NCBI GenBank assembly: GCA_937941455.1
Contig: CALDHM010000011.1
Span: forward strand, 1 to 64,000
Length of the DNA stretch: 64,000 nucleotides
Reading direction: 5' to 3'
Source of the DNA: an uncultured Pirellulaceae bacterium
GTDB lineage: Bacteria; Planctomycetota; Planctomycetia; Pirellulales; Pirellulaceae
The translations under genes and the position numbers were made by a program. Below are positions 30,386-46,373 of this stretch, one piece after another (position 1 is the first letter of the stretch; every line of letters starts with the position of its first letter). The notes below the pieces were generated by a model. The model was not told the DNA's origin. It saw only the letters and a program-made list of their open reading frames with translations, and searched no databases.

Positions 30386-30704
30386 TCCGCGCGCTTTAGA
30401 ATGGTTCGCCGATCTGCCGCCGAGCGGTTGGCAAGCACTCATCACCCGTTGTAACCGACGTTTCGTCTGGGGCGGAACTAACCAAGATCTTGTCGATTGG
30501 CTGTTTCTCTCCGCGCCGAACCCTGAATTTTCATTGAGTTCGCGATTGCAGTTCGCTCGACCGACCGCACGATACGGTTGATTGGTTGCGATGGGTACCG
30601 AACTAGGCTTTGTGCCAAAACTCATCAGCCCAAGGGGCACTAGACCGCGGTTCTCTCGAAAACCGGACGCTAGCGCGTTCCGGCTAATCGTTTGGGGACA
30701 ACGC
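30386..30704. other. Gene-free gap containing family-A repeat
   Basis: 319 bases between two convergent genes. The right half is a family-A palindromic repeat (30603-30708), which runs into the stop codon of the FliG-like gene. Nothing seen in the left half. Confidence 0.6.
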
Positions 30705-30708
30705 CTAG
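30603..30708 (-). repeat. Family-A palindromic repeat, copy 1 (about 106 bp)
   Basis: Outer arms pair imperfectly: left CTAGGCTTTGTGCCAAAA... (30603-30630) and right ...GGGGACAACGCCTAG (30682-30708), 28 and 27 bases. The interior carries AAAACCGGACGCTAGCGCG, shared with the other copies. Relative to copy 2 it is in the opposite orientation. Its end supplies the TAG stop of the FliG-like gene (30705-30707). Confidence 0.9.
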
Positions 30709-31682
30709 GTCGGCGTCGGTAAGCCGAGCGTTTGGCACAAGTCCAACAGCCGAGCTCTCGCCTGTTCTTGCATTGCGGGAGATACCCACGCTTGCTCATG
30801 GATTTCTTTCAATAGCAAGGCGGCTGGCCGCGGTGCCATGCTGAGGATGACGTTGTTGATCACGGATAAATCCGTGCGAAACAGAGCGGGCGCCCACAGA
30901 GAAGTGTCAGCTGTCTTGAGCAGTCTCTGCATATCCGACTTGGAGAATTTTGTTAAGTCGGCAAAGGTGAGAACCCTGCGTGCTGGTGGGATTACGAGCT
31001 CTGAAGTTTCAGCAGGCGATACGCCCTGCTGACCATCCATCGTGCGCGAGCTTGGAGGAGCGGTCGAGCTTGATGCTCCGGAAGTCGTGAGACGTCCTGC
31101 CGATTTGGCCAAACGCTTTTCCCGAATCAAATTATCAAGGTACTCGCGGCTTGTATCACTAATTCGATCCAGCTCGCAAAGGCGCTTGACGATCGACAAA
31201 CGCAAGCTTGGTTCAAATCGTTTCAAAGCGTTTGCAATTTGATGTGGGGCCAGTAACGCCAACGCTTGGGCAATCAAGTGCGGATGCTCGCCATCAAGCA
31301 GTTCGACTATCTCGGCCGTATCCAGATTGCGCCAGTCAGTCACGGCGATGCAGTTAGATTTACCCGCTTCGGCGCAGCGATGATTCGACCGATTGGTCGA
31401 TCGTTCAACTTTGGTCTCGTGATCCCATTGGTTATCGCGATCCGTTACCCGCCCTGATCTAACAACTCGACTAGCCATTTCGTCGTGAATCCGACTAGTC
31501 GCAATTTCTCTGGCCAGAAGTTCGACCGCGGCGGCACGATCGTGATCGGAAACGGATTGCTGCTCTGGGAAAAACGACAAAAGCCGCTGCAGATCCCCCG
31601 GTTCTAGCCGAGCCATTACCCGCGACGCGTAGTCGGGTGGCAACGAACCCAGGGCCACGGCAGCTTGGACAATGGACTTCAT
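30705..31682 (-). CDS. FliG-like protein (flagellar switch homologue)
   Basis: 325 residues from ATG 31682; no Shine-Dalgarno site, and an upstream ATG at 31811 would add a basic 43-residue tail. Three regions resemble FliG: an N-terminal part with AVALGSLPPDYASRVMARL, a middle domain with the EHPH motif (VELLDGEHPHLIAQALALL, the FliG EHPQ motif), and a C-terminal domain (LTFADLTKFSKSDMQRLLK ... LLKEIHEQAWVS). Its length matches FliG. No other flagellar or chemotaxis gene is in the window, so it may be a second FliG copy or a flagellar gene placed apart. The stop codon lies inside a dispersed repeat. Confidence 0.7.
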   Translation of the reverse strand: MKSIVQAAVALGSLPPDYASRVMARLEPGDLQRLLSFFPEQQSVSDHDRAAAVELLAREIATSRIHDEMASRVVRSGRVTDRDNQWDHETKVERSTNRSNHRCAEAGKSNCIAVTDWRNLDTAEIVELLDGEHPHLIAQALALLAPHQIANALKRFEPSLRLSIVKRLCELDRISDTSREYLDNLIREKRLAKSAGRLTTSGASSSTAPPSSRTMDGQQGVSPAETSELVIPPARRVLTFADLTKFSKSDMQRLLKTADTSLWAPALFRTDLSVINNVILSMAPRPAALLLKEIHEQAWVSPAMQEQARARLLDLCQTLGLPTPT

Positions 31683-32555
31683 ACGGTAATTTGCCGTGAA
31701 TCGTGATCGGAGAAACAATTCCTCAATTCGTTGATCGGAATTTCTCGCCTTCCTCGTTTCACGCATTCTTCCTCGGTGTGAGTTCTGACCGAGCTGGCAA
31801 CGGATCAGCATGTTTAACCAGTAAATTCCAAATCTCTCCCCAAGATCACGGATTCGGTGAGTTTGCTGATTATGCCAGTTCGAACGTCAAAGCTCATCGC
31901 GCCCTAGCCCATTCGCCCCGCGGAAGATCAGTTGGAAACGACGCAGGAAAATTGCTTCCCTCAGAAGCAGCATGCACCAACGCAGGTATTTTTCTGAGAA
32001 GTCCCGCCGAGCTTCGCAAGGGACGGGCAGACGCCGTCTAGTCGAACCATCGCGAATTCTCGCCCCATCGCCCCACTGCATGGCAATCGACGAAGTAGTC
32101 AACAAGATTCCCGCCCCCCTGCAAATCGTTAGATCGTTCGATAATGCTTTCGCTTGGGAGCTTTAACCCTCGGGTGCGTAGCCTCGTAATCAACGCCGGT
32201 TGTCAAAAATTCGTTTTGCGGCTAAACTTGAGGGCCATTTATGAAAAAGACTACGCATTTTCGATTCGTCAATCGGAACGAAAGTAGGCGTCTGTGCAAT
32301 ATTCCACTTGGTTGAGTTCGAAACCTGGACGGTTGAGGTTTCCTACGGTAACGGATCCAGTGATCGCGAATTCGTTCCGTGCAAACATACGTGCTGATCG
32401 GCATGAGTGTTGCCGCGTTGGGTGGGACTTAGACCTCGCTTTGCGATGATGGCGAGGTCGGGAATGCTACGCTGTCTGTCGATCTTTTCCGAGCAATCGG
32501 TGCGTATTGCAGCTTAATTCGTATGTAATTCGATTGGATTGAGGGAGTTTTTCTC
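31683..32555. other. Long gene-free gap
   Basis: 873 bases. Two short palindromes are seen: TGCTTC/GAAGCA (31953-31969) and GTCCC/GGGAC (32001-32024). Open frames here have no start signal and no family resemblance. An unrecognised structured RNA cannot be excluded. Confidence 0.4.
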
Positions 32556-32645
32556 GTGGGGACAAAGAAAACCGGCAAGGGACGACGCAAACTTGGCAGC
32601 AAGAAACGGCGAAACCGTGCGAAGATTCGCCATCGCAAAAAGTAA
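32556..32645 (+). CDS. Tiny very basic protein (29 residues), ribosome-type
   Basis: GTG start with GAGGGAG (32541-32547) eight bases upstream, TAA stop at 32643-32645. Of 29 residues, 17 are Lys or Arg; it reads MGTKKTGKGRRKLGSKK then RRNRAKIRHRKK. The size and composition resemble small rRNA-associated proteins such as the AURKAIP1/COX24-type or THX-type proteins. No TMs or cysteines. It is a separate small gene missed by a length cutoff. The function is inferred from composition, and the ribosome site makes expression likely. Confidence 0.7.
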   Translation: MGTKKTGKGRRKLGSKKRRNRAKIRHRKK

Positions 32646-33011
32646 CGTCTGCCCAAGGTTCGGTATTTGAGTGGCGACGACTGCTCCATTTTTCTCGGTT
32701 CGTTGGCGAGCAATCGTCCCGCGACAGGTTGGTCTGCACCCGACTCTTTCCCGGCCTTAACAGTAGGTCCCGACTAGAATTCCTTGAAATTCTTCCAGTC
32801 GGTGTTTGGCTCCCCATACGGCAGGTCGCTTCTGCAAAGCAGCCGACTAGGTTGAAGGGCCGAGTCCGAGATCGCTGTAATCTTAGGCATCGTCCCTAAG
32901 CTTTTAGCCGCAACGCAATAGTGTCCGGTTTTCGCAAGAACTGCAGGCTAGTACCCTGCGGCTGACAGAGTTTGGCTTAAAGCCTGAATCTTTATGTTTT
33001 TTTGTGGACGG
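32646..33011. other. Gene-free gap with a family-A repeat
   Basis: 366 bases. It contains family-A copy 2 (32883-32987). No other feature recognised. Confidence 0.55.
32883..32987 (+). repeat. Family-A palindromic repeat, copy 2 (105 bp)
   Basis: Left arm 32883-32909 (TTAGGCATCGTCCC...) and right arm 32960-32987 (...GGCTTAAAGCCTGA) pair imperfectly. The interior carries GTCCGGTTTTCGCAAGAAC and CTAGTACCCTGCGGCTGAC, shared with copies 1, 3 and 5. Confidence 0.9.
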
Positions 33012-33338
33012 TTAACCCATTGGGTGCCAACATAATCGCAGCAGTTGATTTTGAACTTTGATCGCGCGAATCAACGTCCAGACTTGATCGGGAGTGAATT
33101 GTTTTGGATCTGAGTGAGCTAACTCCTCGAGTTCGCGAGTGATCGCCTCATGCTGCTCCATGGCTGATCGCAAGGTCAGATTCGCACGCTCCCAACATTG
33201 ATCGCCAATTACGGCGGATGGCGCGTCATCCCGCAAGGGTTCCGCCGACAGCATAACGGTCAAGATTCGCGCTACTTCACGTGGCGATGCACCGGGCATG
33301 CGCCGCTCGATCACTTGAGTCAGTTCACTACAGTTCAT
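33012..33338 (-). CDS. Small hypothetical helical protein
   Basis: 108 residues from ATG 33338; an open frame extends 101 codons further upstream but that part has no coding character. The protein is mostly helical with charged segments (TRELEELAHSDPKQF) and no signal peptide, membrane helix or cysteine pattern. No family recognised. It lies between a dispersed repeat and the DUF4340 gene, with the same direction. Could be a planctomycete-specific protein; existence is moderately supported. Confidence 0.5.
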   Translation of the reverse strand: MNCSELTQVIERRMPGASPREVARILTVMLSAEPLRDDAPSAVIGDQCWERANLTLRSAMEQHEAITRELEELAHSDPKQFTPDQVWTLIRAIKVQNQLLRLCWHPMG

Positions 33339-33691
33339 TGGTATTGCAAAGATTGGATCGGATATAAATGAATGGCATGGTCTTGAATGCATCGTTTGAG
33401 TGCCCTGGAGCCGCTCGACCAATCCGTTCCACGCATTCGCCTGGCCAGCCCGAGGAGCCGAACCGACACCCGACCTTAAATTCATCCCGAAGTCAGCGCG
33501 GTGCTTTGGTAACGTACTGGCCAGGGATGTCCCGATAAACCTAGAGGATATTTGCCGCGAAGCAACTCGCCGAGTGGCACTGCAGCAGGTTTGTGAATAG
33601 ATTAGCTTAAGATTACCGCCGATCGCCCGATTTTTGGGCAAAATCTGCGTCGCCTCATCGGCTTAACCGTTACAATCGTCCGCGAAGCGGA
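33339..33691. other. Gene-free gap
   Basis: 353 bases between the small hypothetical gene and the DUF4340 gene. Nothing recognised apart from the unlikely 5' extension of the neighbouring frame. Confidence 0.45.
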
Positions 33692-42789: not shown

Positions 42790-43251
42790 TTCGGTTGCTC
42801 CCTTATCGATCAGAACGGGCGATGAGGCGGTCGGAGTGGCTCTAGTCGGGATGGTCCTGAGGGAGGTCGTCACACCTCCGTTACCATGCCAAATCAGCGA
42901 TCGATTGTAACCATTCGAAATCCGCTCTGTTGTCACGTTTCGATCAAGAAATCGTGAATTTTCTAATTGAACAGCACCAGTTTCAATCGATTCTGCCAGA
43001 TATTGTGGATTGAAAGTGGTCGAATTTAGTTACTGTCGCCAGACGGTAGATTCCCAAAATTATCGGCGTTTTGATGAGCGCGGCTACATAAACGTGGCGC
43101 TGTCCGACGAATCTGCTCACTCGATTGGACGTTTTTCCAACCAAATCATCAGGCCATCGCAGGGACCGGAAGCGTCTTCAAACTTCAAGTTTTCGATTCT
43201 TCTTTTTCCGGTCAGATGCAGCAAGAGAATGGGCTGCTCGAGATCGAGAGG
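42790..43251. other. Gene-free gap
   Basis: 462 bases between the phosphoesterase gene and the end of the frameshift-dependent tail described at 43252. Nothing recognised. Confidence 0.45.
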
Positions 43252-43386
43252 TTAGTCCAAAAGCTCGAGTCGGCTGTTGCCGTCGACCCCTAAGCCGACA
43301 AAATCGAAGCGATGCATCGCCAACGTCGAATCGGTCAGCCAATGCTGCTCGTCGTTCGTTACGCGAAAGCTTTGTTGCCGAAAAAA
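43252..43386 (-). other. 42-codon stop-free tail reachable by a -1 shift at T6
   Basis: Just before the stop of the 112-residue gene the complement reads CGT TTT TTC, and T TTT TTC (43380-43386) is a classical -1 slippery heptamer. A -1 shift there enters a frame open for 42 codons (from 43380 to TAA at 43252-43254) reading RQQSFRVTNDEQHWLTDSTL then AMHRFDFVGLGVDGNSRLELLD. This composition is protein-like. The alternatives are a real mutation in a homopolymer or an assembly error. Confidence 0.55.
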
Positions 43387-43697
43387 CGTTGGTTTCCTCG
43401 TTCGATTAAGGCGTCGAAGGTCAAGATGGCGTGGCCCGCGCTTGGCTCCGAGCGAACAATCACCGTGACGACCGCTGGTTGATCCGCCCGCGACGGAGCG
43501 CTCCCACCGGCCGCAAGCCGGTCCGCGGCGGCAACCGCAGCGGCTTCATCCAGTCGAAATCTGAAAATGGCCTCGTTCGGGACCTCATCCACATTTGGCG
43601 CCACGGGAATGTTTTTCATGGCGGCCCAAAAGTCGGCCGCAGCGAGTCGGTCGAGCCGCACGCGCAAGAGGAACTCGAACGGCAACCCACGTAACAT
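43359..43697 (-). CDS. Hypothetical protein of a coupled small-gene pair (possibly frameshifted)
   Basis: 112 residues in the standard frame. ATG follows directly after the TAG stop of the preceding small membrane gene (TAGATG), so translation is probably coupled. The chain is helical with an Ala-rich stretch (DEAAAVAAADRLAAGG) and ends in strand-like TVIVRSEPSAGHAILTF. No family recognised and no signal peptide. The end of the frame is suspicious: a T6 run lies 25 bases before the stop and a -1 shift opens 42 more codons (to 43252), which would give about 147 residues. Confidence 0.55.
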   Translation of the reverse strand: MLRGLPFEFLLRVRLDRLAAADFWAAMKNIPVAPNVDEVPNEAIFRFRLDEAAAVAAADRLAAGGSAPSRADQPAVVTVIVRSEPSAGHAILTFDALIERGNQRFFGNKAFA

Positions 43698-43937
43698 CTA
43701 GCCCCCGAACTCCTCGGGTAACTCAATCGTTCGAATGTACGGTTCGATTGCTTTATCCGATTCGGGCAGTAACCCCAATTTTCGGCAATAGAGATTTTCG
43801 CGGGCCATGATCGCCAGCAATTCACTGCGCATTTGCTCGACGGCAAGATGAGCCACGGCCACCTTTCGCCCCGCTTCTGCGCGGTGGCGACTTACCAGAG
43901 CAACGGCCCATAAGACGACAGCAACCACGAGGGCCAA
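43698..43937 (-). CDS. Small single-pass membrane protein
   Basis: 79 residues in the open frame counted from a TTG at 43937; the true start is uncertain because the frame remains open upstream without an ATG, and the only nearby ATG (43966) is in another frame and stops after 24 codons. The N-terminus is one membrane helix (ALVVAVVLWAVALV) followed by basic and helical residues (HRAEAGRKVAVAHL). Middle gene of a three-gene run after the TPR gene; its TAG overlaps the next ATG. Function unknown. Confidence 0.55.
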   Translation of the reverse strand: MALVVAVVLWAVALVSRHRAEAGRKVAVAHLAVEQMRSELLAIMARENLYCRKLGLLPESDKAIEPYIRTIELPEEFGG

Positions 43938-43984
43938 CCAAAATAGGGTTGCAATGCTAACTTCATAGGATTCTCCCCACCGTG

Positions 43985-44987: not shown

Positions 44988-45932
44988 TCAAGCGGCCCGC
45001 TGTTCGCCGGCTTTTTTAGTTTGCCGCACCGGCTTTTCTTTCCATCGCTTGTGTAGCCACCAGTACTGTTCCCGATCGTTGTGGATCGCCTCGGCCATCC
45101 GGTCGTTGTACCACTGAGTCAAACTCGTGACGTCGCGTAAATCCGCCGGCAGGTCGAATGGGTCGGCGATGCCGGTGCAACCGATCTCAAAATGGAAGGG
45201 GCGAGTGGCATGTTTGCAATAGCTGACCATCATCGGCGCGTTGCCGCTCAGCGTAAACAGCGCGATCGCCTTGTGACACGATGCCGGACGTCCCAAGAAG
45301 TTGATCCAGCAGCCCTTGGTTCCTGCGTGTTGATCCCCCAGCAAACTCAGAATTTTGCCCTGCGAAATTTGGTGCTGCACCGCGGTGGCACTCCCGTCCT
45401 TCGGCAACAAAAACTGACCATTTTTTTCACGAAATTGATTGATGAAGCGATCGAGGTAGGGATTGTCGAGTGTCCGGGCTACCGAGTAACTGCCCATGCC
45501 GAGCAACCCCAAGACGTAGCCGCCCATTTCGAAGTTGCCGAAGTGTCCGGAGACGACCACCAAGGGGCGATAGTCAATCAGCCGCTCGGTCATGCGCTGC
45601 TCATCGCGAATCCAAACGTAACGTTGCCAATTGGTCTCGTGCACTTTGCGCGGTACCAGAATCACCTCAATCACCATCATCGCCAGGTGATACCACATGC
45701 TGCGGGAGATATCTTGCAGCTCACGCGGGGTCAATTCGGGATAAACGGCTAGAAGATTTTCCGAAATCACCTTGCGGCGAAATTTGATAACATCGGCCGC
45801 TAGCCAGGCCATGAAGCGGGCCAACGCGGCTGCTTGCTCGATGGTCAACACTTGAATCAAGCAAATTACGGTTCGCGCAGCCGCGTACTCGACGAACCAT
45901 CGCAGTCTCTCGCGAGATATTTGCCGAAACAT
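44988..45932 (-). CDS. Lipid A acyltransferase family protein (LpxL/HtrB type)
   Basis: 314 residues from ATG 45932; an upstream open frame to 46283 runs through dispersed repeats and is rejected. An N-terminal hydrophobic segment is followed by the catalytic H-x4-E motif in SGHFGNFEMGG, and LLGDQHAGTKGCWINFLG and FTLSGNAPMMV are typical of the family. Reaction: transfer of an acyl chain to lipid A or a related acceptor at the inner membrane. Planctomycetes make lipid A, which fits. No clear Shine-Dalgarno site; stand-alone. Confidence 0.9.
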   Translation of the reverse strand: MFRQISRERLRWFVEYAAARTVICLIQVLTIEQAAALARFMAWLAADVIKFRRKVISENLLAVYPELTPRELQDISRSMWYHLAMMVIEVILVPRKVHETNWQRYVWIRDEQRMTERLIDYRPLVVVSGHFGNFEMGGYVLGLLGMGSYSVARTLDNPYLDRFINQFREKNGQFLLPKDGSATAVQHQISQGKILSLLGDQHAGTKGCWINFLGRPASCHKAIALFTLSGNAPMMVSYCKHATRPFHFEIGCTGIADPFDLPADLRDVTSLTQWYNDRMAEAIHNDREQYWWLHKRWKEKPVRQTKKAGEQRAA

Positions 45933-46190
45933 TCCGGTCAGCGGATTCTTGAGAACTCGGAAACGTGATGGGGAAACACAAAGGCCAACGGCGGCTGAGC
46001 AAGCGGCCTTGCACTTCTCTGCCGTGCACGATTCGCTGCGGCCATTGTGCCAGGTCGGCAGTATTCCCGAAATATCAGTTTTTTTGGAAAATCCGAGCGC
46101 GGAGCAACAGCACATCAATGTCGAACCGTTTCGTCCCTGCGAACTTCGCTGGGGGAACTTTATGGCCGACGTGAGATTCGCGCGCGAGCC

Positions 46191-46212
46191 AGGCTTTGTT
46201 CCCAAACGATTA
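46191..46212 (+). repeat. Family-A repeat, isolated left arm
   Basis: AGGCTTTGTTCCCAAACGAT plus two bases matches the left arm of the family-A element; a full copy starts 45 bases further on. Probably a remnant of a tandem copy. Confidence 0.65.
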
Positions 46213-46256
46213 TTCGGTATGGCAGCGGTAGCGCGCCGGCCCTCCAGTGTTAGGTC

Positions 46257-46373
46257 GGACTTTGTTCCAAAACGATTGCCCATAGAAGCTTACCCGGTAC
46301 GCGTTAGCGTCCGGTTTTTGCGAAAACCGCGGGCTAGAGCCCTGCGGCTGACAGCTTTTAGGATAAAGCTTAG
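46257..46373 (+). repeat. Family-A palindromic repeat, copy 3 (about 117 bp)
   Basis: Left arm (GGACTTTGTTCCAAAACG) at the start, core CGTTAGCGTCCGGTTTTTG and GCCCTGCGGCTGACAG, right arm ending in AAAGCTTAG. Same order and orientation as copy 2. Confidence 0.88.

Follow-up and report, generated by a model that had tools for sequence, protein, structure and literature searches.

On the minus strand of the window (the whole stretch of 64,000 nucleotides analysed here, from an uncultured Pirellulaceae bacterium), a gene for a TPR-repeat protein is followed by a chain of short open frames (Table 1). The preliminary description had seen here a coupled trio of a TPR gene, a membrane protein gene and a small gene, the last of which carries near its end a slippery heptamer where a -1 shift would yield a second, longer product. 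Its sequence and coordinates were all recovered: the heptamer is present in the correct phase with the 0-frame stop close behind, and the open reading frame (ORF), its stop and the 42-codon -1 frame are where it had placed them. The shorter product has 112 residues as described, and the shifted one comes to 148 by our count (104 + 2 + 42) rather than about 147. As for the trio, the TPR gene does lie upstream, but the second and third genes are not separate, since they share one frame with only a TAG between them. The former "membrane protein" (listed ORF 43698-43937) is piece 1 of Table 1 with a longer N-terminus in the latter.

Table 1. Features of the locus in the order in which they are read; residues are those of the intact homologue in the genus relative G001
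Feature	Positions	Strand	Remarks
TPR-repeat protein gene, 313 aa	43985..44926	-	Orthologue in G001
ATG after GGGGAG stretch	43964..43966	-	Where the intact homologue has its start codon; both start with MK
Piece 1, predicted membrane helix and following region	43701..43958	-	Aligns with residues 4-89
In-frame stop TAG between pieces 1 and 2	43698..43700	-	Ungapped alignment runs through; ATG codon directly behind
Small-gene ORF, 112 aa	43359..43697	-	In-frame stop 43361-43359
Piece 2, the "small gene" up to the T6 run	43386..43697	-	Aligns with the middle of the protein
T6 run	43386-43381	-	
T TTT TTC heptamer	43380..43386	-	Alignments in both frames overlap there
Piece 3, -1 frame tail, 42 codons	43255..43380	-	Aligned from residue 197; ends at TAA 43254-43252
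In-frame stop TAA between pieces 3 and 4	43252..43254	-	Homology continues beyond it in the same frame
Piece 4, 44 codons and TGA 43119-43117, frame of piece 3	43117..43251	-	Aligns with the C-terminal part

The TPR gene and its downstream junction

The orthologue of the TPR gene in G001, a genome of the same genus, is 67% identical over residues 26-303 and 64% identical over 313 aligned codons. At an E value of 0.001 the TPR gene finds matches in 17 of 40 genomes, most of them weak and through the repeats; besides the genome of the window itself (G000), the strong ones are in G001 (67%), G045 (54%) and G004 (51%). At 1e-40, four of 396 genomes of the order match, namely G000 itself, G004, G033 and G045. 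The gene is patchy in its occurrence, with G045, from another family, being as close as the genus member G004. In G045, G004 and G033 the TPR orthologue is not followed by the downstream gene discussed here, and two further members of the genus, G002 and G003, have neither a strong TPR match nor a match to that gene, although these genomes are only 77% and 87% complete.

In the window, 18 bases lie between the TPR stop and the ATG of Table 1; the corresponding junction in G001 is an ATGA overlap. The homologous region, beginning at 43958, is in a different frame from this ATG, and comparison with the one homologue suggests that the frame is probably broken just after the start codon. A separate observation concerns the lipid A acyltransferase-like ORF at 44988-46283, whose listed start is probably too far upstream, since in four relatives of the genus the similarity sets in no earlier than residue 104-125.

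An uninterrupted homologue in a genus relative

Directly after its TPR orthologue, G001 carries an uninterrupted gene of 290 codons (L004, 620-1492). This genome is apparently the metagenome-assembled genome (MAG) Pirellulaceae bacterium ACE_PLA12 (record JAHBXS010000002.1), the sole record returned by a pattern-based contig scan that finds close relatives only. The preliminary description had proposed comparison with the orthologous gene in related genomes, and G001 reads the whole region as one open frame. When the G001 protein is searched against the window genome, residues 4-201 match across a single TAG (E 8.3e-24, 31% identity), and residues 176-283 match in another frame across a single TAA (E 9.9e-14, 33%), both matches being parts of this locus. 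In the tblastn alignments, 197 residues run across the TAG without a gap and are 31% identical, and 108 columns with 6 gap positions run across the TAA and are 34% identical. Four consecutive pieces of the window are thus colinear with a single open frame over nearly the whole length of its product, and the window copy is interrupted by two internal stops and one frame change within a stretch containing T6. Homology reaches past the second stop into piece 4, as in GLMIWLEK of the window against GLMIWLQK of the C-terminal part in G001. The proposal that the -1 frame reads like a normal protein was well founded, since this frame matches the protein of the relative. G001 residues 177-201 are covered by the alignments of both frames, and T6 lies inside this overlap (about residues 194-196), which makes it the likely, though not proven, site of the frame change. 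The same search found no intact second copy in the window genome; as that assembly is 96.19% complete, one elsewhere in the genome is not fully excluded.

The homologue in G001 shares with the window copy its place after the TPR orthologue and its N-terminal hydrophobic stretch, and differs in being one open frame where the window copy has three or four interruptions. Protein identity between the two is 31-34% as against 64-67% for the TPR neighbour, so that the gene has diverged faster than its neighbour. Neither the intact homologue nor pieces 1 and 2 reached the cut-off of any family in Pfam or NCBIfam; DUF6187 (18.8 bits, cut-off 25) and PP0621_fam (13.3 bits, cut-off 45) fell below their cut-offs and were not believed. 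The intact homologue also found no match in a sequence search of the PDB, nor was there one in the plasmid collection. Its structural model is poor (mean pLDDT 44.8), and values above 70 are essentially confined to an N-terminal helix of about 27 residues. This one predicted helix looks like a membrane anchor, and the intact protein may accordingly be pictured as membrane-anchored with a domain outside the cytoplasm.

As a sole query, the 112-residue product matched one of 60 genomes, its own, and therefore looked like an orphan; the homologue surfaced through synteny with the TPR gene. Searches with the G001 protein identified two of five genomes of the genus and two of 241 genomes of the family (G000 and G001 in both cases), and in the order G000 alone among 396 genomes. 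G001 must be absent from this order sample, since it would have matched. A three-row profile likewise found one of 392 genomes of the phylum, again G000. No homologue beyond these two was recovered in the family, order and phylum searches; within the genomes covered, the parent family is very small.

All four pieces retain the signature of coding sequence. GC content at codon positions 1/2/3 is gene-like (0.65/0.42/0.59, 0.70/0.49/0.68, 0.62/0.36/0.71 and 0.56/0.36/0.56 for pieces 1 to 4), unlike that of the downstream stretch (0.47/0.48/0.37). In both comparisons with G001, the second codon position is the best conserved (identity 43/52/24% and 46/64/33%). Within the pieces, a stop would result from about 3.3-3.7% of single changes; by our own arithmetic, two stops in 828 nt therefore correspond to some 55-60 neutral changes, though the range is very wide (roughly 7 to more than 200). 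That only two stops have arisen in some 828 nt while the coding pattern is kept means that either the break is recent or some constraint remains, and for the same reasons much of the divergence from G001 probably accrued while the gene was still coding. Synonymous sites between the window pieces and the G001 gene are saturated (the NG86 method returns no synonymous distance), so no dN/dS value is available and relaxed selection is not shown.

Decay, sequencing error or recoding

We consider it very likely that the locus is a pseudogene, a single gene broken by stops and frame changes. Given the whole copy in the relative, an ordinary decaying gene is the most likely account. The original would have been one gene of about 280-290 codons, encoding a protein with an N-terminal membrane anchor and lying just downstream of the TPR gene. 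In this lineage it would then have acquired two stops, a frame change at or near T6 and probably another at the start, which makes at least three and probably four interruptions. The 112-residue ORF and the -1 tail would be adjacent parts of this single gene, and what looks like a slippery heptamer would be a homopolymer where an insertion or deletion changed the frame. Translation of the window copy would end early and no functional product would be expected. Homology to an intact gene, one mark of a pseudogene, extends across the lesions (two in-frame stops, one frame change and one probable further one). We infer that the gene was whole in the ancestor, that its first break lies by the start codon and its second at T6, and that no full-length protein is made. 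Both this polarity and the exact sites of the lesions depend on a single comparison, as one intact homologue at 31-34% identity was found. The preliminary description had offered, as its second option, a mutation or sequencing error at the homopolymer; it was right about the kind of event but not about its extent, T6 being one among these several interruptions.

Whether the interruptions exist in the organism is a separate matter. That the gene is intact there, and that the interruptions are errors of a draft genome of 77 contigs (0.97% contaminated), seems unlikely to us. T6 is a homopolymer, the coding pattern and the homology are well kept in all pieces, and PMC11017572 notes that spurious pseudogenes can arise from assembly. 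In addition, PMC3711429, in its part on BLASTP-validated singletons, expects such frame changes to be sequencing errors and not genuine indels, an expectation that favours an assembly error at least at the T6 site. Two of the interruptions are stop codons, however, and three or four lesions fall within about 0.85 kb of one gene; extended by simple proportion to the rest of the listed coding sequence, the same density would amount to some 270 lesions. The longest listed ORF has 1210 codons, and together the listed ORFs span 92% of the window, although they were chosen for openness and their being open is therefore no independent test. For each of the ten ORFs tested, chosen from 48 listed, and likewise for the TPR and acyltransferase genes, the Pfam matches lie in one frame, which does not prove each neighbour complete. 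A pseudogene confined to this gene is thus likelier than an assembly error, while a local patch of bad sequence is possible. The window is otherwise dense in genes except at 30386-33691, where over about 3 kb the ORFs are sparse, show a weak codon pattern and leave gaps of 319 and 655 bases; this stretch may hold other degraded genes.

The readings that keep the locus functional are far less probable. Programmed -1 ribosomal frameshifting at T TTT TTC, yielding the 112- and 148-residue products, draws on a classical heptamer in the right phase, a nearby 0-frame stop and a tail homologous to a real protein, yet we regard it as highly improbable. Such a site is not exceptional here: the window ORFs of at least 100 aa, taken from a mechanical and greedy list in which some ORFs are doubtful, comprise 19,179 codon positions and contain 33 in-frame X XXY YYZ heptamers. 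A -1 frame of at least 44 codons, measured from the heptamer onward, opens at 11 of the 33, the one at T6 (44 codons) among them. The preliminary description had suggested looking for an RNA stem or pseudoknot downstream: in a pseudoknot-free prediction, the 81 nt after T6 fold at -23.5 kcal/mol, no more strongly than shuffled sequence (z -0.65, 52 of 200 shuffles as stable). The homologue in G001 covers the same region in one frame, and because this sole intact homologue is a single open frame, no conserved shift site can be demonstrated; moreover, the gene was found in only two genomes at the levels of genus, family, order and phylum. The shifted frame does not end where the homologous gene ends, and its product would still be without the N-terminal piece before the TAG and the last 44 codons behind the TAA. 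For full-length translation, ribosomes would have to read through two stops and probably shift a second time, which speaks against programmed frameshifting as originally proposed. Table 1 of PMC3711429 requires for a programmed frameshift a cluster of at least five genes and a conserved site, and the gene in the window shows neither.

That a single piece is still translated and useful alone, for example the 112-residue ORF from the ATG behind the TAG, is scarcely probable either. Reinitiation at this ATG is conceivable and the codon pattern is kept, but the ORF begins and ends inside the homologous protein, has no family match above cut-off and, as noted, finds only its own genome. Expression of a strongly down-regulated but maintained full-length protein, through read-through of the TAG and the TAA and a -1 shift at T6, appears to us extremely improbable. 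Such maintained recoding at several sites would account for the persistence of the codon pattern in each of the four pieces. It keeps a distant place among the possible readings because PMC7918605 describes in-frame stops as widespread within bacterial genes and holds that many such genes may not be pseudogenes. If true, it would combine several recoding events in a single gene, a rare situation.

Significance and comparison with known systems

As a pseudogene, the locus is one more broken gene in an environmental planctomycete and carries little weight by itself; a literature search for Pirellulaceae and pseudogenes found no report. It does offer a caution: where a slippery heptamer is followed by a protein-like -1 frame, further lesions, which betray a pseudogene, should be looked for beyond the next stop and on the upstream side of the start.

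The DNA polymerase III gene with a programmed -1 frameshift is dnaX. The gene in the window resembles that system, as portrayed in the relevant part of PMC3711429, in having a slippery heptamer in phase, but differs from it in that neither a conserved heptamer nor, in the predicted fold after T6, an evident stimulator could be shown, and in having other interruptions on both sides. With bacterial pseudogenes that carry frameshift and nonsense lesions, in contrast, it shares a frame change supported by a homologue, extra stops and the absence of a shown conserved shift site. Compared with the GeneTack singletons as PMC3711429 presents them in that part, there is no essential difference, except that the parent family of the gene in the window is very small.
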